64,000 bases of DNA, taken from positions 1-64,000 of the IMG/VR virus record IMGVR_UViG_3300027969_000043; one strand, given 5' to 3'. The notes under the pieces were generated by a model. It saw only the letters and a program-made list of their open reading frames with translations, had not been told where the DNA came from and made no database searches. Each line of letters starts with the position of its first letter. The first letter of the stretch is position 1. This document shows, piece by piece, positions 6,399-64,000 of this stretch. Origin of the DNA: a virus. Both the position numbers and the translations under genes were made by a program.

Positions 6399-6399
6399 A

Positions 6400-6594: not shown

Positions 6595-6624
6595 AAAATT
6601 TATTTTTTTGTAAATTATTATACT

Positions 6625-6633: not shown

Positions 6634-6643
6634 CTTAAATTAA

Positions 6644-7045
6644 TTAAAAAACTCGTTTTAAATCCAAAAGTACCAATTCTTTCTTATCTATCAGTATCAT
6701 TTTGTCTTGATACTCAGACCAATCTACTTGATACGACTTGTAATCTATATTACCAATGTCATCACCAAATTTAGATTCGATAAGTTTGTTTAGGGCATTT
6801 ATAGTGTAAAACGCTGTACCTTTTTTGTGGACGATTATGGCGTTAGGAAAGAAATTTTTAAGGTCTATTTTTTTACCCTCAGGTAATAATAATTTAAAAG
6901 TTAGTATGATTTTTGAGTCGTCATTTATATTATTATAACAGAAGACTTTATCTTTTGTTACATTAAATTTTGTATCTAAATAATTTAGAAACCAATCTAA
7001 TCGTTCTGGAAATATAAAGGACGCTAATAATATTGATTTATTCAT
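6644..7045 (-). CDS. Unknown protein, second gene of a coupled pair
   Basis: The 133-residue product was not recognised. It looks like a small alpha/beta protein, with hydrophobic strands (KIILTFKLLLP, NAIIVHKKGTAFYTINAL) and no membrane segment or signal peptide. Its start overlaps the end of the preceding gene by 8 bases, which indicates translational coupling. The pair is driven by the host-type promoter at 7639, unlike the structural genes on either side. That suggests early or middle expression. Confidence 0.65.
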   Translation of the reverse strand: MNKSILLASFIFPERLDWFLNYLDTKFNVTKDKVFCYNNINDDSKIILTFKLLLPEGKKIDLKNFFPNAIIVHKKGTAFYTINALNKLIESKFGDDIGNIDYKSYQVDWSEYQDKMILIDKKELVLLDLKRVF

Positions 7046-7634
7046 TTTCTATAGAGTATAAGTATGGAATGTACTTGACCTGATTATCAAGGTTTTCAAT
7101 TCTAGTTTTATACTCAATAAATATCATATTTTTTTCTAAAAACACTTTACTTTTATTCTTTATTTTCAATAAGAATTTTTCAACATTCAAACCAATAAAC
7201 TCAATAAGTTCTAAATCAAAACCAAATATAAAATTATCAAAATATGTATATACCATTCTATCATGTCTATACGATATGATGTTGTTTGTTTTGTTAATCT
7301 TTTTTAATAGTTTTATGATTGTTTTTCTATCAAATATAATTGGGTCGATGAATGTGTATTTGATATCTTTGGTAAGTTGTTTGTAAACTCTTTCAACAAA
7401 ATTGTATATGTCTTCTTCGTGTAGTTCTCTTCTTTCGGTTTTTTTAAATGTCCAATATAGATTGTCGGATAATTTTCTATCTATGATGTCGTAGTCTGGA
7501 TAATGTTTCTTGATGTAATCCCATCCAATGATTAACGTGGGTAATCCCTGAACCGTTAGGTCCAAGGATTTAACCACATTAAAATCACAAGAAACATTTA
7601 CATTAGCAACTGAAACAATATTCGCTATAAGCAT
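7038..7634 (-). CDS. Unknown protein, first gene of a coupled pair
   Basis: The 198-residue protein was not recognised. It contains LTVQGLPTLIIGWDYIKKHY near the start, then a segment rich in charged and aromatic residues. No catalytic motif is clear. Its ATG lies only four bases after the TATATTTG box of a host-type promoter. The mRNA is therefore probably leaderless or nearly so if this start is right. The next in-frame methionine is far downstream. The last codons overlap the next gene. Confidence 0.65.
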   Translation of the reverse strand: MLIANIVSVANVNVSCDFNVVKSLDLTVQGLPTLIIGWDYIKKHYPDYDIIDRKLSDNLYWTFKKTERRELHEEDIYNFVERVYKQLTKDIKYTFIDPIIFDRKTIIKLLKKINKTNNIISYRHDRMVYTYFDNFIFGFDLELIEFIGLNVEKFLLKIKNKSKVFLEKNMIFIEYKTRIENLDNQVKYIPYLYSIENE

Positions 7635-7638
7635 AACG

Positions 7639-7668
7639 CAAATATACGAAAAGTATTTTAAAAGTCAA
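7639..7668 (-). promoter_or_regulatory. Host-type promoter for the 7.0-7.6 kb gene pair
   Basis: TTGACTT, then CG and TATATTTG, with 19 bases between TTG and TATATTTG, on the minus strand. It nearly duplicates the SSB proximal promoter. It starts at the stop codon of the giant hub gene and ends four bases before the next ATG. Confidence 0.72.
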
Positions 7669-7670
7669 AA

Positions 7671-10600
7671 TTATCCAATAAGTGATTTAATTTCATTTGC
7701 CAGTACAGGATAGTGTAACTTGTAAGGGCCAGTACAATTATGTGCTTCACCGTCTGATGCTGAATAACCAACACCTTGATTTAAAACTGTAACATTTGGT
7801 TGACCATTTAATACAGAATAATATGATATGACGTCAGTGTTATCATAAGTTGTTGTACCGTTTAATTTTGTACCGTATATTTTATTTATATCCCCATTAG
7901 GTTTATATTTTATATTTCCTATCCAACCACCACTTCCTCTGACAAATAGGTATTTTGCACTTGGAAATACTCTTCTAAGTTCTGTTAGTACTTTTAGTAA
8001 ATTGTTTGAATTTTGAAATCCATCATTAGTACCTATTGATACTACAACATTTTCTACCCCAGTGCTTACTGGATATTTTTTAAGTGCACCTATTAACCAT
8101 GTAGTGTCTTTTCCACCAAAATATAATGATGCATCACCTTGGGTTGGTGAAATTCTTCTTGCGGAAGAGCCTGCGGTTATTAAAATATTTTCTAAACAAA
8201 ATAACAATGAATCACCAACTAAAATGTTTTTTAAGGTTGTTGGTGTGTTGGTTGAAGTTGGTTGTGTTGATGAATTTAATGCTTGTGGGTTATAACCGCT
8301 TATTTTTTTAAATAATTTGAAATTATCTATCCCTACTTTAACAAATCCCTCTGTCATTATATCTGCATCATATTCATCATAATTTAGGTATCCACTTTTA
8401 CCCTTAAACGACCTTGTTATATATGGTTTATATACGTCATATTTTTTTCCCATTTGGAACATGCCAGCATATCCACTATTTGGGTCTGTATATGTTTGTA
8501 ACCCATTTTCCTGCATCCCCATTGTAATGATATTGTCAAGCGAAAAACCTTCATTTGGTTGTTCGTATTTTTTAAATATATCTTTAAGTCTTGAATATGG
8601 TCTACCCAAGTCATCCTTCGCACTACCATTGATTCGTGTTTGTGCCTCTGCTGCTTTTATTGGAAGTTGTTTAGTCCACACGTTAAGAAATCCATTGGCT
8701 AATTTTTTAGGGTCTGACCTATATAGTGTTGAAATGTCTGATTTTTTAACACCGTTATCTGCGACTAATGTACCTGGCCAATTGTCTGTGAAAAAATCAG
8801 TATTTACGTTGCTTTGATACGATGCTTGGGTACCACTAGCAACTTTGTAATGTTGAGATGCGCCATCAGGACCTTGTTGCCATGAAAAATATATCCAAAG
8901 TAAATCTGATGTTGATAATTCATAATTTGCTGTTCCTTTAACGGTAATAAAATCACAACCGCTATAAACAGCTTCTTTTCCATCTGGTTCTTTAGGATTT
9001 TTTACAACTGGGTCATATTGTGCGTTTGCTGGTATTGTTACGGTATTTTTTGGATTATTGACATATTTTGGTTCTTTCGTCTGCCATAGACATATTGCTG
9101 ATGTTCCGTGGTATTCAAAATGCCAAAACTCTTCGACACCGCTACCATCTCTTAAGCTGGTTGGCATCCAGAATCCATATCTCCAGCAATTTTCTAAAAA
9201 CCATTTTAGTGATATGTTTATATTTTGGTCAAAACCTCTTTTTAAATTATCCGCACTAGTTGATATTTGTAATGCATTACCATCAGCATCTATTGTTTGT
9301 AAATCAACAGCCAACCCCCATCCATGATAAGAAGTTCCAACAGCAGCAACAGCACCAGGGGGTTTTTTATTTTTTATATTATCTCTTACTAAATTTGTTT
9401 GTTTTGTTGCGTTACGATATAGGCTAGTAATAGTGATATAGTTTCCATCGCTAAATGTTTTATAATTATTTTGTTTTGCGTGTGTAACAAAATCAGTTAA
9501 CATTTTTTCTAACGCATTTGCAGCTTCTGTTATTAATGACTCGTTAAGTTCGTTTTCGTTGTCTGGGGCTGGAGCTTCTACCTGTGTACCAGCTTTTTGA
9601 TTACCAACACCGTTAGGTGCAACAACTTTTTTCATTGTTATTTGATTGTTTGTTTGAGTCAAATACGCATTTTTGCCATCATTTCTAAATATTGTTGCTG
9701 CAATAGGTGCTAATAGTTGAGTTGGGGTATACGTTACTGTACTACCAGCTGTTGCCGCTCCAATTTTTTGGCCAGATATCAATGAAGAATAAAGCGTCGC
9801 TTTATCTATCAATGGTGTTTTTGCTATTCTAATTCTTGTACCAGTAAATACGGTTGTCATATTATTTGGCACAATGCTATGAGTAACCTTTGTGATTAAA
9901 TAAGCACCATGAAACATTGGTATGTTATCCAATTGAAAATACATCATTGGTTGAATCATTGCATCGCCAAGCATTTCAACTTCAGCTTTATAGCTTCTTA
10001 CAGAATAAACATTGTATAGGTTTTGACCAACATATGACTGGTTTGCCGAACTTAGTGAGTTTGATATTGCGTCTGTTATTGCTAATGATTCGGCCGTTTC
10101 ATTAAATTCTGATTGGTCAAGCCTGATATCCTTAAATATGTTTTGATTTTGTTGTCCGTATTTAACAATAAATGCAGATGCAAAATCCTCCCAACTGGCT
10201 TTTTCTTCTGAAAAATCTTTAGGCCATGTTTTATCGTTTGTTATATCAAAACCATCGTTTGGATATTCCGAATCTGGACCGAAATCTAGCTTGGTTGATG
10301 TTTGCCCAACATATACGCAAACAAACGATGGGCCAGTTGCTGTTTCTTTTTGTGCCATATAATAAGGGTATGGTTCAAAAATGGAATGCAATTCTTTGGG
10401 GTCGTTAAAGTTAATAAAATTTGGTAATGCAATAAATTCAAAATTATTATCTGTTAATATTCTACCAAATAAATCATAAATGCTAGAATCAGGACTCTCA
10501 TACAGTTGATGCGTTACCATTACTGGATGTATTTGAAATTGTTTGCTAATATCTTCAAATGACCTACTGACAAATCTAAAACTATCAATAAGGTTTAATC

Positions 10601-26843: not shown

Positions 26844-29783
26844 TTATATTAAACTACTCATTATTTTTTTTATTCTTTCTATCTCTTCAGTCAATACTTT
26901 ATTTTTACCATTAACCGATTCATATGTTGCTGGTTTAAATGGTTTAGGTTCATCATCTGATGATTCACCACCACCACCAGACTCACCTGAAGACGCATCA
27001 GCATCTGAAGCTCCAGCATCACCACCACTAGGCGGCGTAGCCGTAGGTGCACCACTTCCACTAGCAGCACCCCCACCAGTACCACCTCCACCAGCAGCAC
27101 TTCCACCCTTTCCATCTGGTTTTGACTTAATACCTAATTTAGCAGCCTGCTTATCTGTATTTTGTTGTTGACCACCCTTTGCAGCCATATTTTTTTTCTG
27201 TTGGAACATATATTGAAACAAACCTATTGCATCAGTCATAAATTGCATTAAATGCTTTTTAAATTTACCTCTATCTTGAGCATCTTTTTCTATTTGTGTA
27301 CGTTTAAATTGAGCCTCAGCCTCGTCAATATTTTTAGCACCAACTTTACCCATTCCAGCTAACTTATCCATTAAATCACCTTTTTTAAATTTACCAGTAT
27401 ATACTGTTTTAAAAATGTCATTGATAAATTTAGCTAAATTTTCATACGTTTGTGGGTTAGCAGATGAAAGATTAAACATTTTATTAAAATCAGTTAATAT
27501 AATTGGATTTTGTTTAAATGTTTGAAGTTTTTGGTTAAAAACTTTATCATCCCCACTTTTCATATTTCTAAGCTTATTCCTAATCTGCTCAATTCTATTT
27601 AAAAAATCTTCAAACTCTTTAACTCTTTTAGGACTAACGTTTTTATTAAGATATTTAACAAGCTCTTTATCTCTAAAGTATTTAGCTTCAGACAAAGGCT
27701 TTTTTAAATCTGCCGTCTTAACCGCGTATGTTTTTTTCTGAGGTCCGTCACCATCAGCATCTATTTGTGTACTTCCTGGTGAAACATCTGGAATTGTAAC
27801 TGTAACGTTTCTACCTTTGTAAATTGCTTTATCACCCTTTTTAAATGTTGTTACATTTGTATCTACATTTGATTCATCATCTGATTTACCCTCTGCTCCA
27901 GCACCAAACTTCTTATTGCTAGCAACAACAAATCTAAATAAGTTTAATAATGAATTATATAAATCATCGTTAAAACCGCCTTTACCATCACCTTTACCTT
28001 TATCACCACCTTCTTCTTTACCTTTATCTTCAATTTTTTTAGGGTCTTGTGCTTCATCTTTATCAATGGTTGGACCTTCTGGTTCTACAATACCAGCACC
28101 ACCCTCAATGTTTAACATTGATTGGTATAGGTCATTAAGTGTTTTTGCTCTAGATTGTTTTTGACCTTTCATTCTCATTATCTTAACAAGAGCACCAGCA
28201 CCCAAAAGAGCAACACCGATTGGGCCTAATACGGCACCAAATCCTTTTGCTACTAAATATCCAGTACCAGTCTTAATACCTGTTTTAATTGCTACTTTGG
28301 TAACAATTTGTGGTACCATTTTAATAAGAATAGATGTCAAGTTTCTACCAGCTATTGTACCGTATAAAGTTGTGTCAGGAGTTAATTTACCCGTTCCAGA
28401 TGCGCCACCGTGGAACATATCATTAAGTGTTTTAAATTGGTTTGGGTTATTAACTAAATCATGAAGACCTTTAGCTGCTTCAGTTGGTTTCATCATTACA
28501 CCACCTCTCTGACATAATAAATCAATACCCTTATTAGCATCACCACCACCAATTTGCTTAAGTGCGTCAACCAATTCTTGAGGTTTTGAATTTGCATCTA
28601 ACGGATGCTCTGTAAGACGACCTAAAAGTTTATAAACACCTTCACCAGGCTTAATATCATTTAATATTTCACTTTTTGTTTGCAGTAACTCAGTTGTTGT
28701 TTCTGTGTCAGTATAGTTATACGGTTGGTCAAATAAATGCTTAAACCATTCTGTATTTGCTATCCAACTAAATGCACCCATTGAACCACCTATACCTGCT
28801 AATAACAATGGAAGTTTATTTGACTTAAGTGTTTTCATTCTTTCACTGTCAAAATCTTTACCACCATCACCACGTTTAGCTTGCAATGTTTTTCTTACAT
28901 TTGCTGCATCATCTTCATTAATTGAGTAGTCAACACCCTCTTCATATCTAGAAGCTAATGTGCTAGGACCATCCCAATTACCTACTTCACCTAATCCTAA
29001 TTCTTCTCTACAATCATTAAGTTCTAATAGGTATAAATAATTTAATTTATCTGAGTCTGTAATACCTTTTGATATAGCAAGGTCAACAATTGCTTTTGCT
29101 CTTTCTTCACATTCTTTAGGACTACTTATAGAATATTTTAAATTTTTACCAGCTTTTTTAAGCTTGTCACCAATATTGTCAAAAAAACCTTCTTCTATTT
29201 TTGTTTCACCTAAACCAAAACTTTCGTCTATTTCTTTTAATTCCTCTTCAGACACTTCAACAACGTTTCCCTCAGCCTCATCAACAACTGAATAAGCTGC
29301 TGTTAAATCAACATCTAAGAATTTTTTAACATATTCTCTAAGGTCGTTGATAATACCGTTGGCCGCATCGATAGGTAAATAACCCTCTTCATTTGGTTGT
29401 TTTAATGTTGCAGCAACAATTGAATCATAAACAGAAGAAATACCCATAACGGTATTTAAAAAATCAGCACCCTTTTCATTATTAGGGAATTCTGGATTTT
29501 GTTCTTTCATTTGAGCATCAAGGGCTTTAATCATTTCATTACCCTTTTTATCTATGATTTGCTGAATTTTAGCTGCGGCCTCTTGGTCAATTTTTCCCTT
29601 GCCAAAAATTTTACCACCAGCCTTATATCTACCCAATTTAGATAGACCATATTTAATTTTTTCCCACATTCCTTCGTCAATCATTTCTTCATTCATTGTT
29701 GGGTCAACTTCAACCATCTCTCTTAACATGTGGTTGATAACAACATAATGTTGTTCTTCTGTTAATATAATTTTTTGCGGCAT
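26844..29783 (-). CDS. Large structural or internal virion protein, unknown
   Basis: The 979-residue protein was not recognised. It starts QKIILTEEQHYVVINHML, a helix motif also seen near the start of two other proteins here, and ends VLTEEIERIKKIMSSLI. There are two short hydrophobic stretches, PLLLAGIGGSMGAFSW (about residue 325) and AVLGPIGVALLGAGALV (about 530). A low-complexity linker rich in G, K and D lies near 600, and a glycine-serine-alanine linker near 900-960. The hydrophobic segments could be membrane-active, as in ejected internal proteins, but this is inference. It lies between the tail tube and sheath genes and has its own ATATTTATA motif. The N-terminal LTE could be a prohead-protease site of the (I/L)xE type. 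Confidence 0.7.
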   Translation of the reverse strand: MPQKIILTEEQHYVVINHMLREMVEVDPTMNEEMIDEGMWEKIKYGLSKLGRYKAGGKIFGKGKIDQEAAAKIQQIIDKKGNEMIKALDAQMKEQNPEFPNNEKGADFLNTVMGISSVYDSIVAATLKQPNEEGYLPIDAANGIINDLREYVKKFLDVDLTAAYSVVDEAEGNVVEVSEEELKEIDESFGLGETKIEEGFFDNIGDKLKKAGKNLKYSISSPKECEERAKAIVDLAISKGITDSDKLNYLYLLELNDCREELGLGEVGNWDGPSTLASRYEEGVDYSINEDDAANVRKTLQAKRGDGGKDFDSERMKTLKSNKLPLLLAGIGGSMGAFSWIANTEWFKHLFDQPYNYTDTETTTELLQTKSEILNDIKPGEGVYKLLGRLTEHPLDANSKPQELVDALKQIGGGDANKGIDLLCQRGGVMMKPTEAAKGLHDLVNNPNQFKTLNDMFHGGASGTGKLTPDTTLYGTIAGRNLTSILIKMVPQIVTKVAIKTGIKTGTGYLVAKGFGAVLGPIGVALLGAGALVKIMRMKGQKQSRAKTLNDLYQSMLNIEGGAGIVEPEGPTIDKDEAQDPKKIEDKGKEEGGDKGKGDGKGGFNDDLYNSLLNLFRFVVASNKKFGAGAEGKSDDESNVDTNVTTFKKGDKAIYKGRNVTVTIPDVSPGSTQIDADGDGPQKKTYAVKTADLKKPLSEAKYFRDKELVKYLNKNVSPKRVKEFEDFLNRIEQIRNKLRNMKSGDDKVFNQKLQTFKQNPIILTDFNKMFNLSSANPQTYENLAKFINDIFKTVYTGKFKKGDLMDKLAGMGKVGAKNIDEAEAQFKRTQIEKDAQDRGKFKKHLMQFMTDAIGLFQYMFQQKKNMAAKGGQQQNTDKQAAKLGIKSKPDGKGGSAAGGGGTGGGAASGSGAPTATPPSGGDAGASDADASSGESGGGGESSDDEPKPFKPATYESVNGKNKVLTEEIERIKKIMSSLI

Positions 29784-31920: not shown

Positions 31921-34900
31921 TTAAATGTTATCAAATGAAGCCCCTGTATTCATAATATTAAATTCTACAATTATAAATTCTAGAGCTCTTGTTGGTTTAA
32001 GGTAAATCTTACCAGTTAATTGATTTCTATCGATATCTTCTGGGTCGTTACTTAAAACAACTCTGAAATCTACTAAACCTCTTTCGGTTCTAATGCTATC
32101 CAATATTGGATTAACAAGTGACAAGAATTGATTTCTTACGATAGTATCATTTTGTTCGAACAACAATCTAATAGCCACAGCAGAGATAAGTTTTCTAGCT
32201 TGTAAAAGAAGTCTTCTAACATTGATTCTGTCAAGAGCACTTTCTTTAACTTGTAGTGTTTTATTACCCCAAATCTTAATACCATCAGATGTAAATGTTG
32301 CGATTGGGTTGATTCTATTTTCGTAAAGAACATCTCTTTCACTTAAAGTTAACTTCTTACGAGCTTTAAGAGCGTCAACGTCACCTCTTTGAATACCTGC
32401 TACTGCGAACCAAGGGAATGCTATGTTATCAGTCAAAGCGATGTTTCTCACAACGTCTCTTGTTGGTGGAACGTAAACATACACATTGTTCTCAGCATCA
32501 AGGATTTGAATCCAAGGCCAGTATGTTGCTGTGTAGCTACTATCATACATATCTGATAATTGGTCTGTTACGTCACCAACTGTTAATACTGTTCCTGCAG
32601 AATCGGTATCAGGCGTTGTTACAACATATAAAGAGTCAGCTCTGTCTTGCTCAATCATTTCGATACTAGCTTCAACAAGATTTGTGTTATCAAACGTATC
32701 AATACCAGGCGTAGCAAACACATTAACATTTACAGCCTCTGGGTTTTTAAATGTCCAGATACCCTCTAAGTAAGCGTAGTAATCAGATGTAATACCTAAA
32801 TCACCGTTAGTTAGAGTTTTGTTTGCAAACGTACCTACTGCTAAACCAGCAGCACCCTTGGTACCATTGATAGTAAAGCTATCTAAGTTAGTTCTTCTTG
32901 TTCTGTAAGGGTCGAAACCGTCGAATCCGCCATAAGGTGCAAAAGTAAATTTACGAGCGTACACTTTCTCATATGGGCCGTTAGCTAAACCAGCGTCAGT
33001 TCTAAACTGCCAGTCACCAGTATCAAATAAGAATATTGGACTATATGTGTTACCTGAGTTATCAATAACAACTTTAACATTGTCAATTGTAGCACCTGTA
33101 GCGTCGATATCCATGTGGAAACCTTTGGTTAAACCAGTCCACATATCATAATCTTGTCCAACAGGTATACCTTTGTAATCAAAGAAATCAGCGTCTATAC
33201 CTATTGTATTAGATAAACCTAAATAGTATTTACGTTTGTTTTCAAAAGCGCCATATTTTTGCTTATACATTATGCTTGGTGTTTGAACATCAGGGTTAGA
33301 GTTAATTTCATAATCTCTAACTGGGAATCCAACAAAACCAGCTGGGAATGCATCACTTGTATCAGAACTTTCATCAAGTTCAAGTAAAATGTGAGCAGAT
33401 TTTGATGCATATACACCATCTAATGTACCGATTCTTCTAGCAACAAAGTTGTTTGAAGTTGGGTCCATTGTACAACGTGTGTAAGCTTCGATGATATTAG
33501 GTGCCGCATCTGTATCATAAAAACCTCTTACCAATACATCAAACTCTCTTGTATCTGGTTTAATGTTAGCAATTGAAATTTTATATTGTTCGTTTGCTGC
33601 GTTACCGTCAGATATTGTCCAAATTCTAAATAATCTTAACAATTTATTACCTCTTAATTCTGATACAACATAAGGTGTAACAGCTGGTTGGTATTCTTGT
33701 AAGTAGTCAGAGTATTGACCAGCGTAGTCGATAATATCTAAATTGATACCTCTAACTTTACCATCATTAACATACTCAACAAACATTTTATCAAAGAATT
33801 CTTCAACGTATACTGCAGTTTCACCATCTAAAGCAGTTCTACCAAGAACTTTTGTTATGTAATTTCTTTGTGTTCTATCGAAAGAGCAATCATAAGAGAA
33901 TGCACCCTGTGTATTTGATGTACCAATTAAAGCGAATGAACCGTAAGGGTTTTGTTCTGCTGTGGTAATGCTTGAATTAAAATTCAATCCTGTTGTTGCA
34001 CTAACTTGGAATACTGGTAATTGAGTTTGAGCATTAACTTTACCTCTAGAACGAAGCAAAGTAATTAATTTATCCTCAACATCTGCGTATCCTTTACCAA
34101 CAGTATATGTTGTAAAACCAGATGTTGTACCTGTTTTATACATTGATATTGAAGTACCTGAGTAATAGTTTACAACTGCTGATGTTGTACCAGTATTATA
34201 AAACAAACCAGTACCTGAATATACACCTGTAAAACCAGATGTTGTACCTGTTCTATAAACTGTTAATGGGTCACCAGAGAAGTAGAATACATTACCAATA
34301 GTTGTACCTGTTTTATAGTTAATACCAGAACCAGAATAGAATGTTGTAACACCTGAGGCTTGGCCTGATATGTATGCTGCTGTTTGAGCGCCACTATACT
34401 GTATTGTAAATCCAGATGTTGTACCTGAGATAAGTCTAGTGTTTGAAGCACCAGTATAATATTGAATATACCCACTTGTCAAACCAGTATAAATATTTGG
34501 TGTTGATGTTGAACCTGTACTTAAAATAATTGCAACACCATAAACACCAACATAAGTTGTTGCATTTATTGCGGTATAAGAACTAGGAACACCTTGTACA
34601 CTATATAGTAATCCAACACCAGTTCCAGGTGAATTTTTTAAACCAAAATAATTACCTTGCAATATTCCAGCGGTTTCCATTGTATTATATGGTTCACTAG
34701 TTGTTAAATAAGTAACATTTACAGTGCTAGATGTTGTAGCGGCAGTAAATCGTATAAATGAACTAATAAGTGGTGTTGCTCCGCTAAAACCTACCGAACT
34801 TTGATTTAAACTTTGTGGTGTTACACCAGAAGTTGCTGCAGAGAATACCGCAGAAGCACCAACATAAGATGAACCGCTTTGTACAAAACTAAGAGGTACA

Positions 34901-36831
34901 CTAAACGATGTACCAACTGGTGCACCACTAAACAATGTGGCTAAACTAAAGTTATTAGCAACATACATTGCATTAAGAACATTGTTATTAATAACATAAC
35001 TTGTGCTGTTTGTTATTGGGTTTGTTTGATAAGTAATTAACGGATTAGCATTTATAGGGGTGGCAACACCACCTGTAGCACCAGTAGTTGTTGTATTAAT
35101 TGCTGCTGGAACAGTTACTTTACTTACAATAATATAACTTGAAGAAGCACCAGTATAAACCGCACCAGAACCTGTCATAACAAAAGGAATTACACCTCTA
35201 ACACCAGAATTTAACCCAGGTAATGAAGCTAAACTAAATAAAGAAGCGCCATAAAATGCACTTGTTAATGGGTCTGAAATTACAGTATTTGTTAATGAAC
35301 CACTAGTTGTTGCTGTATATCTAATTAATGGGTTATAGTTTGCTGTTGTTGAAACACCAGTACTAGATGCATTGAAATAGTATGGTGTAATACCTGTTTG
35401 TGATACAGTATATGTTGAACTAGCACCAGTAAAAATTGAACCGTTATAAATAAATGATAAAGGTATTGTACTAGTTGTACCAGTTGCTGTTGCGGGTAAT
35501 CCGCTAAGACTAATATTACCAGCTTGGTATAAACTATTAGTTAATGGGTCTGCAATAGTTGCGGTAATTAATGTATTACCAGTTGTTGCTGTATAATTTA
35601 TAAATGGTACAAAACTACCACTAGTTGTAGCCGCAGTTGTTGTTGTATTAATACCACTTTGCGTTAAGCCAGTGGCAATTACAACGTAGTTAGATTCATT
35701 ACCAGTAAAACTAGTACCTACGTTTACATAGTTTCTAGCTATTGAACCAGTCGCACCAACTGCCAAGCTAGATAACCCAGTTAAACTAAAATTTGAGTTA
35801 TTATAACCAGCATTTGTATTTGGCTCGTTGATTTGAACAGCAGAAAGAACACCACCAGTTGTTGATGTATAAACAATAAATGGATTTGTATTTGCGCTAC
35901 TAATTAAAGCAACACTAGCAGCACTTAAAGTCATTGTTGTTGTACCAGCAGAAATAAGTGTATAAACTGCACCAGCACCACTATAATTTGAACCACCAAC
36001 ATTTATAAATGAATTAGAAATAACATCAGATTGACTTATTGTTAGACTAGGCAATGTACTAAGACTAAAATTACCGTTGTTATAAAGGCTTGATAATAGA
36101 GTATCATTTATAGTTACTGTTACCAAATTATTTGAGGCGTCTGCTGTAAATGATGCAAATGGGAGGATACTTACATTTGTTAGTGTTGCACCTGTAGTTG
36201 TTGGGTCTAACACATTTGGTGTTGAACCAGCGTTAACAACCAACAATTGACTGCTAGCACCTGTAAATAAACCACCAACTTTTTCTAGCGAAACACTCAA
36301 CGATAATATTTGACCATTTGTTAATGTTGGTAACAAAGCTAAACTAACACTACCATTGTTAACTAAATAACTTAATAATGGGTCACTAATAGTTGTACCT
36401 ATTAATACGTTAGAGTTTGTTGCAGTATATACAATACTAGGATTATACGAGCTTGTTGTTGCTGTTATTGTTGAATTATCCAAAGCAGCATCCATCGTTA
36501 TACCCCAAGCTTTACCTGCATCATAACCAGAAAAACCAAGAATTCTTGTTACAAATAATTGGTTTGATTGTGATAGATATGATTTTGCGATATATGGTAA
36601 TTCATACAAAGGTGCGCCGTTTCCGTCTGGACCGTTTACCAATGTATTATTTAAACCACCGAAAAACGATTGAAACTCGCCGTAGTTACTTACGAAAATA
36701 GGTTGAAATGCTGGTCCTTTGGTTGTTTCACCCACCAAACCCAATGTCGTAACACCTACTTGACGTGTTACAAATGTTAAGTCTTTTTCTGAGGTGTAGA
36801 CACCTGGACTAACGAATACTTTTTCTGCCAT
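31921..36831 (-). CDS. Tail sheath protein (T4 gp18 family) with a giant repetitive insertion
   Basis: Residues 1-125 match the sheath N-terminus: VFVSPGVYTSEKDLTF, then TTLGLVGETTKGPAFQP. The C-terminal 300 residues carry the conserved sheath core: IKIWGNKTLQ, INVRRLLLQARKLISAVAI, TGKIYLKPTRALEFIIVEFN. Between them, about residues 130-905 form a Thr/Ser/Gly-rich insertion. It holds six to seven divergent copies of a roughly 92-residue beta-type repeat and about seven copies of a 19-20-residue repeat. T4 gp18 is 659 residues; this is 1636. The sheath contracts to drive the tube through the envelope. The insertion most likely sits on the outer surface of the tail. The gene has its own terminator and a promoter motif 44 bases upstream. 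Confidence 0.93.
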   Translation of the reverse strand: MAEKVFVSPGVYTSEKDLTFVTRQVGVTTLGLVGETTKGPAFQPIFVSNYGEFQSFFGGLNNTLVNGPDGNGAPLYELPYIAKSYLSQSNQLFVTRILGFSGYDAGKAWGITMDAALDNSTITATTSSYNPSIVYTATNSNVLIGTTISDPLLSYLVNNGSVSLALLPTLTNGQILSLSVSLEKVGGLFTGASSQLLVVNAGSTPNVLDPTTTGATLTNVSILPFASFTADASNNLVTVTINDTLLSSLYNNGNFSLSTLPSLTISQSDVISNSFINVGGSNYSGAGAVYTLISAGTTTMTLSAASVALISSANTNPFIVYTSTTGGVLSAVQINEPNTNAGYNNSNFSLTGLSSLAVGATGSIARNYVNVGTSFTGNESNYVVIATGLTQSGINTTTTAATTSGSFVPFINYTATTGNTLITATIADPLTNSLYQAGNISLSGLPATATGTTSTIPLSFIYNGSIFTGASSTYTVSQTGITPYYFNASSTGVSTTANYNPLIRYTATTSGSLTNTVISDPLTSAFYGASLFSLASLPGLNSGVRGVIPFVMTGSGAVYTGASSSYIIVSKVTVPAAINTTTTGATGGVATPINANPLITYQTNPITNSTSYVINNNVLNAMYVANNFSLATLFSGAPVGTSFSVPLSFVQSGSSYVGASAVFSAATSGVTPQSLNQSSVGFSGATPLISSFIRFTAATTSSTVNVTYLTTSEPYNTMETAGILQGNYFGLKNSPGTGVGLLYSVQGVPSSYTAINATTYVGVYGVAIILSTGSTSTPNIYTGLTSGYIQYYTGASNTRLISGTTSGFTIQYSGAQTAAYISGQASGVTTFYSGSGINYKTGTTIGNVFYFSGDPLTVYRTGTTSGFTGVYSGTGLFYNTGTTSAVVNYYSGTSISMYKTGTTSGFTTYTVGKGYADVEDKLITLLRSRGKVNAQTQLPVFQVSATTGLNFNSSITTAEQNPYGSFALIGTSNTQGAFSYDCSFDRTQRNYITKVLGRTALDGETAVYVEEFFDKMFVEYVNDGKVRGINLDIIDYAGQYSDYLQEYQPAVTPYVVSELRGNKLLRLFRIWTISDGNAANEQYKISIANIKPDTREFDVLVRGFYDTDAAPNIIEAYTRCTMDPTSNNFVARRIGTLDGVYASKSAHILLELDESSDTSDAFPAGFVGFPVRDYEINSNPDVQTPSIMYKQKYGAFENKRKYYLGLSNTIGIDADFFDYKGIPVGQDYDMWTGLTKGFHMDIDATGATIDNVKVVIDNSGNTYSPIFLFDTGDWQFRTDAGLANGPYEKVYARKFTFAPYGGFDGFDPYRTRRTNLDSFTINGTKGAAGLAVGTFANKTLTNGDLGITSDYYAYLEGIWTFKNPEAVNVNVFATPGIDTFDNTNLVEASIEMIEQDRADSLYVVTTPDTDSAGTVLTVGDVTDQLSDMYDSSYTATYWPWIQILDAENNVYVYVPPTRDVVRNIALTDNIAFPWFAVAGIQRGDVDALKARKKLTLSERDVLYENRINPIATFTSDGIKIWGNKTLQVKESALDRINVRRLLLQARKLISAVAIRLLFEQNDTIVRNQFLSLVNPILDSIRTERGLVDFRVVLSNDPEDIDRNQLTGKIYLKPTRALEFIIVEFNIMNTGASFDNI
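34105..34505 (-). repeat. Seven 19-20-residue repeats within the tail sheath
   Basis: Units follow the pattern TGTTSGFTxxYSGTGxxY, for example RTGTTSGFTGVYSGTGLFY and KTGTTIGNVFYFSGDPLTVY. They form a regular Tyr/Gly/Thr-rich stretch right before the C-terminal sheath region. The spacing suggests a beta-solenoid or beta-hairpin array. Confidence 0.8.
34690..36447 (-). repeat. Six to seven ~92-residue repeats within the tail sheath
   Basis: Each unit has the order: P-x-I-x-YTAT, a variable turn, I-x-DPL, LY-x-x-GN-x-SL-x-x-LP, a spacer, then YTGASS-x-Y and TTTGAT. Examples are IVYTATNSN, INYTATTGN and IRYTATTSG at unit starts. The units are too diverged to be recent duplications. They look like tandem beta-sandwich decoration domains. 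Confidence 0.8.
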
Positions 36832-56109: not shown

Positions 56110-56141
56110 CAAATATACGAAATATTTTTTAAAGATACAAA
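56110..56141 (-). promoter_or_regulatory. Host-type promoter-like sequence just before a terminator
   Basis: TTTG, 20 bases, CG-preceded TATATTTG on the minus strand. The -33 element lies within the last codons of the ArdC-like gene. The start of transcription would fall in the terminator hairpin, so it may be a chance or vestigial match. Confidence 0.35.
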
Positions 56142-57370
56142 TCAAATCCCTCGTCAACATCATTTTTTTCGGATGAATTTTGTGCGGCAACTTTATCAAT
56201 TTCATCGATGATAAATTTAGCAACATCAGAAATAACTTTTATGTTTGCTAAAATTTTTTCTTTATTAGCTTTCCATAACGCTAGGTATGTTGTTTGATGA
56301 GTAACTGGCAATCCATAATGTTTCATTACAATATATGCAACACTTTCTGCTTGTAATTCTTTAATTGCACTATCATATTTAACCTCATCACCTTGATAGT
56401 ATATTGATGATTTTTTCCAATGCATTAATTCGTGTGCTAATTCATGTATAAGTGTTGACACTTCACCAGCACCCTCAACTTCAGATGACATATTAATATG
56501 ATTACCAGCGGAATAACCTTTCTCACCAGCTTTTGCATCACCCTTAGTTAATTTAACCCCCATAACATCAAGAATTTCTGATAAGTATTTATATAATTCT
56601 TTTGTTCTTTCGGTTGGTTCACTATCTTGAAACCATTTTGGTGTTTCAGGAACATCACCTCTTTCGTCAATTGCCTCTGTATCAGAAATATCAAATACGT
56701 ATACAGGCATAAACCTAACTGGCATACCCTTTTTAACTTCGTTATCTAATTGTGTATCATTAACTTGGGTATCATCTTTTGCTGTTTTTGACATAACAGG
56801 TGCAAATATCATAATTCCTTTTGCACCTTTTTTAACCCTTCTAAATTTCTTTTCCCATTGTCTAAAACCAGCAACTTTTTTTGCGTCTGGTTTTTGAATC
56901 CATATAAGTAATGTGTTATAAAAACTATGACCTCTAAACCCAGCAAAAAATGTAAGATATCTTTTAATCTCAGCGGTCATTGCTTTTTCATCGGTGGCAT
57001 TTGCTAAATCTTGAACATACATGTTGATTTTATCCATAAGATTTCCCTTACCTTTAAAATCTTCTGAATTAGAAACAAATTCTTCTAAGTTTTCAAGTTT
57101 ATCAATAAATTCACCTGACTTATTAATATCAGACAAAACTTTTTTAGCGTTTTCAAAATTATCCATATCTGTCACCCAAACTGGTGCGGGATAATTAGCA
57201 CTTGGGCCCCATTTAAAACCAGAAGCTTTAAGTGTTTCTTTATTTCTAAATGTTTCTTGTGATGCTTTTTTTGCGTCAACCTCATTTGATTGAACAACCA
57301 GCATATTTTTATCTTTATCAGCCTTAAGTATCAATGCTTCATCAAGCATTTTTTTTATTAAATCTATCAT
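56129..57370 (-). CDS. ArdC-like antirestriction metallopeptidase protein
   Basis: The 413-residue protein has three parts. Residues 1-120 are an unidentified domain with KASGFKWGPSANYPAPVWVT. Residues 120-215 match ArdC-type ssDNA-binding regions (RYLTFFAGFRGHSFYNTLLI, then VAGFRQWEKKFRRVKKGAKG, IMIFAPV). Residues 305-370 carry a zinc peptidase motif, LIHELAHELMHW, with a downstream glutamate (ELQAESVAYIV). ArdC proteins protect incoming DNA against host restriction enzymes; whether the peptidase part is needed is unclear. An ATATTTATT motif lies upstream. The late-type motif is unexpected for an early protective protein unless it is packaged in the virion. Confidence 0.75.
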   Translation of the reverse strand: MIDLIKKMLDEALILKADKDKNMLVVQSNEVDAKKASQETFRNKETLKASGFKWGPSANYPAPVWVTDMDNFENAKKVLSDINKSGEFIDKLENLEEFVSNSEDFKGKGNLMDKINMYVQDLANATDEKAMTAEIKRYLTFFAGFRGHSFYNTLLIWIQKPDAKKVAGFRQWEKKFRRVKKGAKGIMIFAPVMSKTAKDDTQVNDTQLDNEVKKGMPVRFMPVYVFDISDTEAIDERGDVPETPKWFQDSEPTERTKELYKYLSEILDVMGVKLTKGDAKAGEKGYSAGNHINMSSEVEGAGEVSTLIHELAHELMHWKKSSIYYQGDEVKYDSAIKELQAESVAYIVMKHYGLPVTHQTTYLALWKANKEKILANIKVISDVAKFIIDEIDKVAAQNSSEKNDVDEGFDLYL

Positions 57371-57399: not shown

Positions 57400-60036
57400 T
57401 TATGGGCAAACAACAACGCTGCTACCCTTAATTGTAACATTAATTGATGAAACCAATCCTTTTGAATCTTTAATAGTACATACATACGTTCCAGCTTTTA
57501 ACCCTGTATAGCTTGTTGTTGTTGTAAATGCTGAAGTACCAACTTTATACGTATAAGGCGCTGTTCCACCAGAACCACTTAAAGTTATTGTCCCATCATT
57601 TCTAGTTTTACATGTTGTGTTTGTTGATGATACCAATACAACATTTGGTGTTGCTGAATATTTGTATAATCCAATATCCATCGTACTAGTTAAAGGTGCA
57701 CCAGCAAAATCTTTATTAATTCCACTAATCAATGAACCATTACCAATACCATAACTCCCAGGCACCAAAGTAAAATCCCAATTTTCAGGATTTGGTGACG
57801 TTGTATTTTTAAATATTTGTTGTGAACCAGTATAAAGCACTTCTCCTGAATTTAAACTTGCGCCATCTCCGAGTCTAGAAACATTATTAAAACTTGTTCC
57901 TTGTCCTGTAGGGAATGTATGTGAAAACCCACCATTCACATAATAGATATTGTTTTTTCTTTTTATTCTTGTTCCATTAGAATTTGTGACTCTACTATCA
58001 GGATAAATTAATTGTAGTCCAGTCGTACCCCAAATAATATTATTTCTCATGTCGATAAGTGTATCGTAATCATTACCATAACATGCTGGACCTGAAAAGA
58101 ACGCAAACAATCTATCATTATCTGCATTGTTATCAAAACCACCATAGTAACCACTTGACGATGGATTGTTTGGTTGACTCCACCTAATACCCTTGGTAGA
58201 TAATGGCGGGAAAGCCAAAAATTCTACATCAACTCCTGTTCTTTGCGGCGCTTTGTCTAGTGTTATTGAATTTACACCTAAAGATGTTACTGTTGCATAA
58301 TCTCTATCCCCACCAGCAAAATATGGTGGGACCGCTTTTTCAGGTCCGTACACTGTTGACCCCACTTGAATACCATCCATTCTTGATAAGGATGTTATTT
58401 GGTTTGAACCTGATGTAAAGGTACCTGTCGGGTCAATATTTCCAGTTGTTAAAAAATTCGCACCCCAAAACCACCATTTAAAATCTTGGCCATCACCATA
58501 CACATCACCACCAAATCCATTACCTGAAAATCTACTTTTGTCGTTTTCTACAACTATATTATTCCAAATTCTTATATTATATTGCGCTGCGGCAAAAACA
58601 TCACCACAAGGTAAATGTAAACTAATAACATCCAACGAATTTATTATTAAGTTAAATGCAATTGTATCGTTATTCATACCTGAAGTAATATCATCATTGT
58701 CTATGCTTCCTGCTTCAATAAAACTACTACAGTCGATTACTTTATTATATACTATTTTTGAATTTTGTAAATTAAACACGTCTAAAGTTATACCACCCAT
58801 TCCTTGTGTTGATGAATTTCTACCTGATTTGGCCCAAGCACCTTTAAAATAATTATAACTAATTTCCAGATTTTTACCATTTAAAGCTTCTATTGCGCCA
58901 GCTAATACATCATTAATCCCAAACGTATCAACCGTACTTTTAAAGTTGGTGAATACATTTTTAGTAATCTTACTATTAAAAGCACTTACTGAACCAATAC
59001 CGAATGACATATTACTAAAATAACAGTTTTGAACTGTAAAATTAAATACACTACCTTTTCTATCACCATAATCTCTGTTAGTGCCCCAAATTGTATCGGT
59101 ACCATTAACTTTAGTGTCTTGGTATTCACCCATTAACATTCCACCGTAACTATACGCAGGATTTTGTTTATCGGCAACAGGAAAACGGGTATCATTAAAT
59201 TGTAACCCATCTATTATTATATTGCTAACACCACCAAATTGTGCAACCCAGTGAGTGGGACCATCTTTATATGGGGATTCAGCCGTTGGAAAAACAAAAT
59301 TAGGTAATGGCAAAGACTTGTCACCATAACTTGAAAACACAATCGGTTTTTCAGGTGTTCCACTAGGTGCGGTAAAATCGTCATACGGCCTATCAATATA
59401 TGAAAAACTCACAAAATTAAAATAACCAAGGGTACCATCATATCCGTTTGCAAACATGTCACCTCTTTTAAACAGTATTGAATCACCAGGCAAGAAAGTA
59501 ACATTTGGACTTGATGTCATATTTTGAAGAGCAATCAACGTTTTTTTAGGTGTACTTGGTGATAAACCATCATTATCATCGTTACCTGAAGTACTAAAAT
59601 AGTATTTTTTATTTGGGCCAGCAGCAAGTGTTGTAAATGTAAGTTCATTACCATACGAAGTATCAACAGCATTTATAGCAAACGCTCTGATATAATAAGT
59701 TGTTGATGGTAATAATGGCATAATTCCACCACCACCATCTGGATAATTCGGTGGTATAACGGCAACAAAATGATTAACATAAGGACCAGTACCTGTAGAA
59801 GGATAACCTAGTCTATAGTATTTAACATAAGGGCTTAATTTTGGATTTGGAGAAGTACTCCAAACAACACCTCTTTTTGTTACTGGAGAACCCCCATCAC
59901 TTGTTACATTACCACCACTTTCTGCTCTAAGTGCCTCAATACGACTTATCGCATTAGTTGTAACCGTTGGCGCTGTTTGACTAAAACCAAAAATCGTTAA
60001 TAAACTTAACGTTAATACTAGTAATACTTTTTTCAT
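57400..60036 (-). CDS. Secreted Bacteroidota-type protein: signal peptide, fibronectin-like domain, beta-helix, SprB-like repeat
   Basis: The 878-residue protein starts with a clear Sec signal peptide (MKKVLLVLTLSLLTIFGFSQ). Next comes a fibronectin-like domain common in Bacteroidota (TSDGGSPVTKRGVVWS, then YYIRAFAINAVDTSYGNELT). Residues 150-700 look like a right-handed parallel beta-helix (KKYYFSTSGNDDNDGLSPST; many short N/G-rich turns), as in pectate-lyase-type enzymes and tailspikes. The end holds one SprB-like repeat (TCKTRNDGTITLSGSGG, then APYTYKVG, GLKAGTYVCTIKDSKG). It follows the LRR gene by 25 bases in a fibre operon. No type IX secretion C-terminal domain is visible. It may be a tailspike acquired from a host secreted protein, or a protein exported from infected cells. 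Confidence 0.75.
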   Translation of the reverse strand: MKKVLLVLTLSLLTIFGFSQTAPTVTTNAISRIEALRAESGGNVTSDGGSPVTKRGVVWSTSPNPKLSPYVKYYRLGYPSTGTGPYVNHFVAVIPPNYPDGGGGIMPLLPSTTYYIRAFAINAVDTSYGNELTFTTLAAGPNKKYYFSTSGNDDNDGLSPSTPKKTLIALQNMTSSPNVTFLPGDSILFKRGDMFANGYDGTLGYFNFVSFSYIDRPYDDFTAPSGTPEKPIVFSSYGDKSLPLPNFVFPTAESPYKDGPTHWVAQFGGVSNIIIDGLQFNDTRFPVADKQNPAYSYGGMLMGEYQDTKVNGTDTIWGTNRDYGDRKGSVFNFTVQNCYFSNMSFGIGSVSAFNSKITKNVFTNFKSTVDTFGINDVLAGAIEALNGKNLEISYNYFKGAWAKSGRNSSTQGMGGITLDVFNLQNSKIVYNKVIDCSSFIEAGSIDNDDITSGMNNDTIAFNLIINSLDVISLHLPCGDVFAAAQYNIRIWNNIVVENDKSRFSGNGFGGDVYGDGQDFKWWFWGANFLTTGNIDPTGTFTSGSNQITSLSRMDGIQVGSTVYGPEKAVPPYFAGGDRDYATVTSLGVNSITLDKAPQRTGVDVEFLAFPPLSTKGIRWSQPNNPSSSGYYGGFDNNADNDRLFAFFSGPACYGNDYDTLIDMRNNIIWGTTGLQLIYPDSRVTNSNGTRIKRKNNIYYVNGGFSHTFPTGQGTSFNNVSRLGDGASLNSGEVLYTGSQQIFKNTTSPNPENWDFTLVPGSYGIGNGSLISGINKDFAGAPLTSTMDIGLYKYSATPNVVLVSSTNTTCKTRNDGTITLSGSGGTAPYTYKVGTSAFTTTTSYTGLKAGTYVCTIKDSKGLVSSINVTIKGSSVVVCP

Positions 60037-60061: not shown

Positions 60062-61036
60062 TTAACAATTAGTTACATCTATAGTCCATCCACTTGAAAC
60101 CAGACTTGTATATGCGCTATATCCTAATGTATTGGCAGATAAACAACCATTACCAGTTTGATTAAATAATGTTATTGTATTTGGATTTTGCCAATACGTA
60201 GTTGCACTCAATTTAATTAATGTGTTAGTTATACCACTATTAGGCAACGAATTATCGTTCAAATATATATACGAAATAAAATTAGGGAATGGATTACCTA
60301 ACGACCATGGATTAAATGTTGATATTGAATTATAACTTAAATCTAACACCTGCAATCTGCTAGGTAATGGTTGATACGGTGTAAAATTAGTTATTGAATT
60401 ATAGCTTAAATTTAATGTTTGAATACTTGGTATTGGTAATGATGGGTCATAATTTGTGATTAAATTATTATTCAAATAAAGATTTGAAATACCCAAAGGA
60501 AAAGGAACTGTTGGGGTGAACCCTGTCAATAAATTATTATTTAAATATAAATCAGTCAGCCCTTGTGGTAAACTAGTCGGTGTAAATGCTGTTACACTAT
60601 TATACGATAAATCCAACGTTTGAACCGAACTAGGTAATGTTGAAATTCTACTATCAAAGTTATTGATTAAGTTACCACTTAAATTTAAATACGTTAAACC
60701 ACTTAAATTCTCTAAACCTATTATATCCCTTAATCTATTATTACCATACCCTGAAGATATGTCCAAATTGTTAATTAATATTGGGTTGTTAATAGCTGTT
60801 GATGCGGTATAGTTACCGTTAATTGAATATGTGTGTGATGGTGTATAGTTATCAGAACTTAAATATGTATTTTGAGAGCCATCACCCCAATTTACTGTCA
60901 TTGTGAAATTAGAGGAGCCCTGAACAAAAAAGTTTAACGAATTACCTGTTGAATTAAAAACAAATTTTAATTGTCCTTCCGTAGATGCAGATGTTTTATA
61001 TGATGAGGCTGTTAAACCAATATAAAATAATTTCAT
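60062..61036 (-). CDS. Leucine-rich-repeat protein in the adhesin operon
   Basis: The 324-residue protein begins with a fibre-like head (KLFYIGLTASSY), then a PKD-like beta domain (FTMTVNWGDGSQNTYL ... YTPSHTYSING). Residues 100-270 are about eight leucine-rich repeats (LSGLTYLNLSGNLINNF, VQTLDLSYNSVTAF, LTDLYLNNNLLTGF, IQTLNLSYNSITNF). LRRs are protein- or glycan-binding scaffolds common in Bacteroidota surface proteins and rare in phages. The N-terminus lacks a signal peptide. It lies three bases downstream of the 123-residue gene, so it is probably a virion adhesin. Confidence 0.78.
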   Translation of the reverse strand: MKLFYIGLTASSYKTSASTEGQLKFVFNSTGNSLNFFVQGSSNFTMTVNWGDGSQNTYLSSDNYTPSHTYSINGNYTASTAINNPILINNLDISSGYGNNRLRDIIGLENLSGLTYLNLSGNLINNFDSRISTLPSSVQTLDLSYNSVTAFTPTSLPQGLTDLYLNNNLLTGFTPTVPFPLGISNLYLNNNLITNYDPSLPIPSIQTLNLSYNSITNFTPYQPLPSRLQVLDLSYNSISTFNPWSLGNPFPNFISYIYLNDNSLPNSGITNTLIKLSATTYWQNPNTITLFNQTGNGCLSANTLGYSAYTSLVSSGWTIDVTNC

Positions 61037-61425: not shown

Positions 61426-64000
61426 TTAATCATAAACTCTTATTTCTATCACAGTATAATAGGTATCGCCAAATACCCTATCTGAGGTTGCCTTAGCTAC
61501 TTGTATTTTACTTGAATCTACAAAATTGGTAAACATAAAACCATAAGTAGCTACTGTTATATCACCCCCACCCTTAGATACACCACATGTAGCAAAAATT
61601 GCCGTTTTATCAGTAGTAAATGGTGTACCAGTAGATGCGCTAATTGTTATTACTTTTACACTCCTATCGTAAACTACACCAATTGTTGTGTTAAGTTCAT
61701 TTTCTAAAACAATAGGATAACCAGCAGTCATATTATTTCCAGAATCTATATCAACCGCCGCAACATATCTTTTATAAGGGTTTATTGTTCTCCACATAGT
61801 ACCATCATACAACTGGAGACCAGCATATCTCCTTGTAGGAGTACTTCCAGAGGCATCTGAATGAACAATAAGTCCTTTTGCTGGACTACTTGGCAAATCT
61901 CCACTACCTACTCTTGGTGGTAAAAAACCTTTAGATGTTGATGTTAAATCTAATATCGCACTAGAATTTGGTTTATTAATGCCAATACTTACAGCACTAC
62001 CAGTAATTGCGGTAAATATTGAACTTGAAACATCGTTTGAATTACATCCAGTCCCAAATAAAACACCACCTATATTAAACGAATTTACTGTACCCGAACT
62101 TAATGTTATATTAGTACCAATAATAATATTATTGTTACCAAATCCACCACTAGAAGCAGCTTTACTACCTATTATGATACTTGAGTTAGATGTTGTTCCG
62201 CTACCAGCACTAGGGCCAATAATTATTGTGGATGCGGCTGTTTTTACATTCAACCCCGCATTAACACCAATTGCTATCATGTTATCACTAGTACCAACAC
62301 CAGACCCAGCTAAATTTCCAATAAAAATACCATTAGTTGTACCTGTTACACCTTCACCAGAATTACTACCAATAAAAATACCCCTGTCAGCACCTGTTGA
62401 ATTCTTACCAGCATCAGCACCAATCATAACTGCATTTGGGGCGATATCACCAGCATTACCAGCATTACTTCCAATCATAACTGCGGTACTAGAACCATTT
62501 GCTCCGACACCAGCATTAGTACCAATAAAAACAGAACCACTAGAAGTATGAGCTAATTCACCAGCACTAGTACCAATATACACCCCATTTAGGCTTGTAC
62601 TACCCGTAATACCCCTAGCTGTTCCATTACCTATGATTACAGATGATGTTGAATTTACCGAGCTTTGACCTGCTTGGTATCCTATATATACACCCTTATC
62701 GTTATTTGAGGATGATTTAAGAGCCTCATACCCAATAGCAATACTATATTCTGATTTACCCGTTAAATTGGTGGAATTATCACCAGCACTTCGACCAATA
62801 AATGTTGAACCACTAGCACTTGTTGCATTTTTACCAGCGTCCTCACCAATAAATAGTGAGTAGCTAGCGTTAGTTGCACCACTACCAGCATTTTTACCTA
62901 TAAAAGCCGAACTAGTAACAGAGCTAGCACTCCAACCAGCACCAGAACCAGCAAAGAATGAATAAGTTGCACCAGTAGCACCTTTACCAGCGCTAACGCC
63001 AAAAAATTGAGAATTATTAGCAGATGTTGCACCATAACCCGCCTGACTACCAATCATTATTGAGTTATTTGCGCTAGTACCACCTAATCCACTTTGTGTA
63101 CCAATAAATGTTGAATTACTAGCGCTACTAGCATTAGAACCAGCACCAACACCAATAAATGTTGAATTATTAGCGTTACTGGATTGATAACCAGCTTGGT
63201 CACCGATAAATAAAGAATTATCGGCAAAAGTTGCACCAAAACCACTTCTATCACCAATAAATGTTGAACCACTAGCGTTAGTGGCTGATGTACCAGCGCT
63301 TAAACCAAATACAAACATACTGCTAGCTAAAGCTTTAGCTCCATTACCAAAAGCTATAGAACCAGTACCTGTAGCTACTGGAATAACAGCAGGTGGTGTA
63401 TTATTTTCATCGTACCAATAAAGTGTTGCACCAATATTACCAAGAACATTACCACCAGTTATATCAGTAATGCTCTTAAACGAAACACTTCCGTTAGATT
63501 CTCTTGTTAATAACTGAGGAGCTGTAGTACCACTAGAAATACCAGATAATGTTAATGTATTTGCAGTTAAACCACTAGTAAATACCGTACCACCACTTAC
63601 TGTTCCACCACTTAATGGAAGATAAGCACCTGAAGCAGACGACGAACCTGTATACGCAGATAGGCTTATTGTAAATGCTGAATATCCGTCTGTTCTATTT
63701 TGAGTTAAGGTTATTGTATTTGATGATAACGTAAACCCTGTTACAAAAGTATCTGCAGTAAGATTACCACCACCTATATCATTAATGTTTTTAAATGAAA
63801 CATTTCCGTTAGATTCTCTTGTTAATACCTGAGTAGCAGTAGCAGCACTAGAAATACTAGACAATGTTACATCACCACCAAAATATGTTGTACCTGTTTG
63901 AACCTTTAACGCATATGTATCACCTGATACATTAGACCCCTTTATTGGTGCACCAGCAATGTATACGTTACTTAAAGCACTATACGTAACACCAGATGTA
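61426..64000 (-). CDS. Tail fibre with YadA-head-like repeats, 5' end outside the window
   Basis: The frame is open from 61426 to the right edge, so the TTG that could start an 812-residue product at 63864 is unlikely to be the true start. The N-terminal visible part carries the shared shaft modules VTGFTLSSNTITLTQNR and GAYLPLSGGTVSGGT. Next are about two dozen 17-residue repeats (NSTFIGVGAGSNASSAS type; about 62.2-63.3 kb) like the left-handed head of YadA-type trimeric adhesins. The C-terminal region has SKGFLPPRVGSGDLPSSPA and a beta-rich end domain (IGVVYDRSVKVITIS). It heads an operon with the attachment-like, LRR and beta-helix genes, so it is probably the main fibre of that adhesin complex. 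Confidence 0.75.
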   Translation of the reverse strand, partial: TSGVTYSALSNVYIAGAPIKGSNVSGDTYALKVQTGTTYFGGDVTLSSISSAATATQVLTRESNGNVSFKNINDIGGGNLTADTFVTGFTLSSNTITLTQNRTDGYSAFTISLSAYTGSSSASGAYLPLSGGTVSGGTVFTSGLTANTLTLSGISSGTTAPQLLTRESNGSVSFKSITDITGGNVLGNIGATLYWYDENNTPPAVIPVATGTGSIAFGNGAKALASSMFVFGLSAGTSATNASGSTFIGDRSGFGATFADNSLFIGDQAGYQSSNANNSTFIGVGAGSNASSASNSTFIGTQSGLGGTSANNSIMIGSQAGYGATSANNSQFFGVSAGKGATGATYSFFAGSGAGWSASSVTSSAFIGKNAGSGATNASYSLFIGEDAGKNATSASGSTFIGRSAGDNSTNLTGKSEYSIAIGYEALKSSSNNDKGVYIGYQAGQSSVNSTSSVIIGNGTARGITGSTSLNGVYIGTSAGELAHTSSGSVFIGTNAGVGANGSSTAVMIGSNAGNAGDIAPNAVMIGADAGKNSTGADRGIFIGSNSGEGVTGTTNGIFIGNLAGSGVGTSDNMIAIGVNAGLNVKTAASTIIIGPSAGSGTTSNSSIIIGSKAASSGGFGNNNIIIGTNITLSSGTVNSFNIGGVLFGTGCNSNDVSSSIFTAITGSAVSIGINKPNSSAILDLTSTSKGFLPPRVGSGDLPSSPAKGLIVHSDASGSTPTRRYAGLQLYDGTMWRTINPYKRYVAAVDIDSGNNMTAGYPIVLENELNTTIGVVYDRSVKVITISASTGTPFTTDKTAIFATCGVSKGGGDITVATYGFMFTNFVDSSKIQVAKATSDRVFGDTYYTVIEIRVYD
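62220..63300 (-). repeat. About two dozen 17-residue YadA-head-like repeats
   Basis: Units follow the pattern N-S-x-F-I-G-x-x-A-G-x-x-A-x-x-A-x, for example NSLFIGDQAGYQSSNAN. This periodicity suits a left-handed beta-roll trimer that projects a stiff stalk or head. Confidence 0.75.

Follow-up and report, generated by a model that had tools for sequence, protein, structure and literature searches.

The gene at 57400–60036 and its surroundings

We have analysed a stretch of 64,000 nucleotides (the window), that is, bases 1–64000 of the 168,871-base virus contig IMGVR_UViG_3300027969_000043. The contig belongs to a phage, probably one of aquatic Bacteroidota; it encodes the sheath and baseplate hub of a contractile tail, a family B DNA polymerase and a terminase. 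The gene considered here occupies 57400–60036, exactly the positions given in the first-pass annotation, to which we add that it lies on the minus strand. According to the open reading frame listing, it runs from an ATG at 60036 to a stop at 57400 and encodes 878 amino acids, composed of a signal peptide, an Fn3-like domain, a beta-helix and an SprB repeat.

The surrounding minus-strand cluster extends from 84003 down to 52328 and contains S74-chaperone fibres, large fibre-like repeat proteins, a PKD/LRR protein and an ArdC-like protein. Immediately upstream, 25 nt away, is the gene of the PKD/LRR protein (60062–61036, minus strand; LRR match in Pfam), which lacks a signal peptide and whose orthologue also precedes the family gene in the phage contigs L054 and L066; both of these orthologues are extended at the N-terminus by a long stretch with many TPTPTKTPT-type repeats. 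The downstream neighbour, separated by 29 nt, encodes an ArdC-like anti-restriction protein (56129–57370, minus strand; PF08401, phrog_7245). Part of a large fibre-like protein of the same cluster is found at 61426–64000 (minus strand, from the open reading frame listing; the full gene is 61426–66174 in the record), and S74 tail-fibre chaperones lie further upstream. Two genes of the cluster encode signal peptides, namely the one described here and that of a 1279-residue paralogue at record 67568–71407.

The Sec signal peptide covers residues 1–19 (59980–60036, minus strand) and is predicted as MKKVLLVLTLSLLTIFGFSQ|T, with cleavage at about FS|Q or FSQ|T. For the prediction we have used a home-made rule, which requires a basic start, a hydrophobic core and small residues at −3/−1. 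Only 0.2% of random peptides with matching composition pass this rule, and so do 4 of the 162 open reading frames of the phage, the present gene among them. By the rule and by comparative conservation, the protein thus has the N-terminal Sec signal peptide that T9SS cargo carries.

The signal peptide is followed by the Fn3-like domain (residues 21–140; 59617–59976, minus strand), which has no match in Pfam. Many copies of it recur in two phage members of the family, L055 and L040, at 32–46% identity (best E 5e-18), while it is absent from L054, relative to which it is an insertion. Next comes the right-handed beta-helix (residues 143–792; 57661–59610, minus strand), which is recognised by the family model, AlphaFold2 and Foldseek against the PDB. 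In the AlphaFold2 model, residues 140–500 are mostly of moderate confidence (block pLDDT mostly 60–93), residues 19–140 are poor, and confidence is low away from the beta-helix core. The Foldseek search ranks carbohydrate-active enzymes and tailspikes with a right-handed beta-helix first (best E 4e-9), and the top matches include GH136, alginate lyase, rhamnogalacturonan lyase, PL6, and the HK620 and Dettilon tailspikes. No enzyme family of Pfam or NCBIfam matches the protein, so the likeness to carbohydrate-active proteins is one of fold only, and a sequence search of solved structures gave nothing useful. For the best fold matches, GH136 lacto-N-biosidase and the PL31 and PL6 lyases, the identity is 10–15% and the catalytic residues are not matched. 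Within the family, charged residues of the beta-helix are invariant from the phages through to bacteria. Across pairs of phage members, dN/dS is 0.07–0.30, which means purifying selection, and therefore the beta-helix family is not a product of chance.

The protein ends with the SprB repeat (residues 797–878, Pfam core 803–832; 57403–57648, minus strand), which matches PF13573 with E 4e-8 and 33.2 bits, above the curated cut-off of 28. Neither Por_Secre_tail nor CHU_C of Pfam was found at the C-terminus. With 878 residues and one repeat, the protein does not have the build of a giant many-repeat SprB gliding adhesin with a type B CTD. At the N-terminus, where the signal peptide and then the Fn3-like domain are located, no virion-attachment domain was seen, and there is no PHROG tailspike match. 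Overall, the parts and the fibre-operon setting that the first-pass annotation had described are borne out by the signal peptide rule, the copies in L055 and L040, AlphaFold2 and Foldseek, PF13573 and the flanking genes.

Relatives in phages and bacteria

The paralogue belongs to the same cluster and is 7.5 kb upstream of the window gene. It has two beta-helix halves, the second of which is 40% identical to the window protein, and carries five 4-cysteine repeats. Its C-terminal domain is modelled as a seven-stranded Ig fold with a pLDDT of about 90. Seven of eight phage copies of this domain type match Por_Secre_tail below the cut-off (best E 5e-5; E 0.037 for the paralogue's own copy), and the T9SS CTDs of FspA, RemZ, mirolase and PorZ are within the first 25 matches of a fold search, none of them at E <= 0.001. 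Since hhalign comparisons of phage and bacterial CTDs from small alignments did not reach significance (best E 0.06, a level that some shuffles also reached), the phage CTD is a tentative assignment from Pfam and fold. We have also considered the window gene as a recent duplicate of the paralogue. This was rejected, as the two beta-helices are 40% identical and fall in separate clades that each include bacteria of their own. Among named phages, there is no match to the paralogue, and the sole match to the window protein is at 33%, to the Fn3-like part.

The most informative phage relative is L054, a syntenic orthologue with a terminase on its contig. Its upstream gene is 74% identical to that of the window gene, and the ends of the two upstream genes agree almost letter for letter. 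In codons 1–16, L054 and the window gene differ by 2 synonymous and 0 non-synonymous changes; past these shared codons, the window protein continues with the Fn3-like domain, while L054 goes straight into the beta-helix. From the beta-helix onward the two are 44% identical, with 65% for the SprB repeats. Because the first 16 codons are shared and the sequences then diverge, the signal peptide has stayed constant while the payload has been exchanged. In addition, L020 and L021 begin with nearly the same signal peptide, followed in each by a different one of the family's two beta-helix types. By inspection, 29 of the 31 non-redundant complete phage members have a signal peptide, the exceptions being L045, a clear phage relative with none and with a different C-terminus, and L083, which is doubtful. 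That is, the signal peptide is real and retained, as had been proposed, and the start downstream of it that was to speak against this is found neither in L054 nor in the 29 members.

The modules of the window protein are shuffled between phages, and the C-termini vary. A CTD-like end is present in nine members (the paralogue, L015, L020, L021, L034, L037, L038, L044 and L078), a terminal SprB repeat in six (the window protein, L017, L041, L054, L066 and L067); ten end in a short basic tail, which in three of them (L035, L056 and L072) is preceded by an SprB-like repeat. The basic tail is conserved (RIRKKFINKN and RTRKKYVQKL types) in L035, L036, L039, L040, L055, L073 and L074, where it replaces the CTD-like or SprB module.

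The gene settings are also of several kinds. In L034, whose contig has terminase and sheath, and in L037, the family gene lies within a series of signal peptide or lipoprotein genes, which includes a CHU_C type IX signal domain above the cut-off and a papain-like protease. Directly upstream of the L037 member, 6165–7934 encodes a signal peptide-bearing chondroitinase-B-type (PL6) protein (E 1.5e-59); this protein has a weak T9SS CTD, and the CHU_C domain belongs to the same series. A neighbour of the family gene in L035 has Por_Secre_tail above the cut-off. In L036, L039, L040, L055, L073, L074 and L084, a signal peptide-bearing fibre-like protein is followed by the family gene, and endolysin or spanin-like genes are found a few genes downstream in several of these contigs. 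Examples of such fibre-like proteins, encoded just before the beta-helix gene where small phages have their fibre slot, are L055:423–5771, L036:419–4459, L040:3992–7777 and L084:3246–5720; named phages gave no match to this protein. L084 also has, at 9988–10482 (minus strand) and close to the lysis genes, a small signal peptide protein with an SprB-like repeat.

Bacterial homologs, for which the first-pass annotation had suggested a search, have been found in Chitinophagaceae-type MAGs, where the beta-helix occurs at 35–51% identity in proteins of the form signal peptide, beta-helix, SprB repeats and T9SS CTD. The genomes concerned have 27–64 T9SS-CTD proteins each. The loci are chromosomal, with a gene order common between MAGs and, by inspection, folP-like, DoxX-like and permease-like genes. 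The MAG of L023 is titled Streptomyces griseus; its locus has the Chitinophagaceae MAG gene order and T9SS CTDs, and the label looks wrong. As a close relative was found in only 1 of 197 sampled Chitinophagaceae genomes, the source lineage is narrow.

In the beta-helix tree, phage and bacterial rows are interleaved, with at least three changes on the starred branches, and the window protein and the paralogue fall in different clades that each hold Chitinophagaceae rows. This indicates host–phage gene flow more than once. Together with the Chitinophagaceae relatives with the same modules, it supports the host derivation of the window protein put forward before. The capture was apparently not of a whole protein, as the earlier wording had it: the bacterial relatives have several SprB repeats and a T9SS CTD, while in the window protein a single repeat is present, the CTD is absent and an Fn3-like domain has been added. 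Since the counterpart of its SprB repeat in the Chitinophagaceae proteins is the final one ahead of the CTD (39–43% identity), the window protein looks like the bacterial architecture reduced to one repeat without the CTD.

Proposed role and competing explanations

We propose, with a probability of about 0.6, that the gene product is a host-derived carbohydrate-active beta-helix protein, which is exported through Sec by the infected cell and is not a part of the virion. As modules of host surface proteins and the export tag have been retained, export from the infected cell is more likely for the protein than incorporation into virus particles. We infer both its export and its enzyme activity. 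The protein would be made late together with the fibre operon and exported via Sec with removal of the signal peptide. As it lacks the sorting domain, it would be expected to go no further than the periplasm, collect there and be freed at lysis, and passage through the outer membrane is not supported. The paralogue, with its CTD-like domain, could move onward to the cell surface via the T9SS and is more likely than the window protein to be displayed there. The most likely job would be to bind or cleave a host surface glycan, like a receptor-destroying enzyme, so that progeny would not be trapped on debris and the dying cell would not be re-adsorbed. Between superinfection block and matrix degradation, which the first-pass annotation had listed as possible roles, the sequence gives no preference.

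Several points stand against export, and they are the same ones that favour a virion tailspike or receptor-binding protein, whose signal peptide would be a non-functional or tolerated host leftover: the position within the fibre cluster, the right-handed beta-helix that is a tailspike fold too, the relative L045 without a signal peptide and with a different C-terminus, and the small phages with signal peptide-bearing fibre-like genes in the fibre slot. In view of the last point, it was also too strong to state that a Sec signal would serve no purpose on a virion protein, and for the same reason sequence alone does not close the question of a virion role. Given the gene position, the spike-suited fold and these fibre-like genes, we give a virion protein a low but real probability. 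On the other hand, L054 has kept the signal peptide with synonymous changes only while the payload was replaced, and 29 of 31 members have one; other relatives lie within series of signal peptide or lipoprotein genes, away from any fibre gene seen; a virion-attachment domain was not seen at the N-terminus; and the phage is already equipped with fibres lacking signal peptides and with S74 chaperones. It is also conceivable, yet very improbable, that Bacteroidota phages deliberately send spikes or fibres to the periplasm (cysteine pairing), from where these join the virion only at lysis, which would explain why, in several phages, the fibre slot holds spike-like or fibre-like genes with signal peptides.

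An exported adhesin or coat without enzyme activity, which would serve superinfection exclusion or competition by masking the receptor or changing how the infected cell adheres, seems decidedly unlikely to us. Modules of the SprB and Fn3-like kinds are characteristic of surface proteins in Bacteroidota, and the SprB match is found in Pfam; however, the beta-helix has charged residues that do not vary between phages and bacteria, as expected for a ligand or catalytic site, the window protein has no CTD for surface display, and a PL6-type lyase adjoins a relative. Such a function was proposed by the Cryophage authors for the T9SS cargo of that phage (PMC7468147). Finally, the strong similarity to chromosomal Chitinophagaceae genes could come from bacterial DNA misassembled or binned into the phage contig. 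This can hardly be the case, since the window gene is present at 100% in three further assemblies (L006–L008), is syntenic in L054 and similar in L041 and L066, and its start context is AT-rich and of phage type.

Known systems and further features of the phage

Phage-encoded T9SS cargo is already known from Cryophage and crAss-like contigs, and in the literature that we searched, no such protein has been put to an experimental test. For the Cryophage cargo, competition or superinfection exclusion has been suggested (Bellas et al. 2020, PMC7468147). It resembles the present case in being exported-type carbohydrate-active proteins of a Bacteroidetes phage, with host export machinery presumed, and in a payload that is highly variable between near-identical phages. 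The Cryophage proteins have T9SS type A domains (endoglucanase, GH39, PA14), whereas the window protein has a beta-helix, an SprB end and no CTD; unlike theirs, its gene is part of a fibre cluster, in a phage with a contractile tail. On crAss-like cluster 2 contigs (PMC6949934), T9SS sorting-domain ORFs stand next to structural genes; the likeness is that of T9SS domains on phage contigs, and the differences are BACON domains, gut phages and no beta-helix in the passages considered.

The Chitinophagaceae proteins (L023–L030) share with the window protein the signal peptide, the beta-helix (48% identity to L023) and the SprB modules. They differ in their length of 1283–1864 residues, many SprB repeats and a true T9SS CTD, and by inspection they are chromosomal, beside permease and glycan-synthesis genes. 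Tailspike depolymerases such as those of HK620 and Dettilon have the beta-helix fold in common with the window protein; they have a virion-binding N-terminus and are not known to carry a signal peptide, an SprB repeat or a CTD. What is new here is a widespread beta-helix family whose bacterial kin have been traced, a constant signal peptide with exchanged payload, SprB variants lacking the CTD, and the location in a fibre operon. If our proposal is true, Bacteroidota phages commonly put glycan-active proteins outside the cytoplasm via host export routes, with a payload exchangeable behind a constant signal peptide. The natural variants without signal peptide or CTD offer concrete material on how lytic phages alter the surface and surroundings of the dying cell. 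It would also be a caution that a gene in a fibre operon is not necessarily one for a virion protein.

Elsewhere in the phage, two more proteins have signal peptides. One is a DNA/RNA non-specific endonuclease (L012:2728–3318, minus strand; record 118728–119318; Pfam E 1.6e-23), which, if periplasmic, could cut the incoming DNA of other phages. The other is an NlpC/P60 peptidase (L013:3408–3986, minus strand; record 139408–139986), possibly an exported endolysin. Over the whole record, the motif [AG]TATTTAT has 46 occurrences in the 100 nt preceding starts, where 4.9 would be expected. Most lie 10–30 nt ahead of the start, an example being upstream of window position 29783 (gene 26844–29783), and the motif is likely a late promoter class. 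The tail sheath protein at 31921–36831 is very large (1636 residues), and its best-matching sheath stretch is the last ~280 residues only. Lastly, L010:10515–20000 holds, by inspection, a long series of sugar-related genes, one of which is a glycosyltransferase (phrog_7162).
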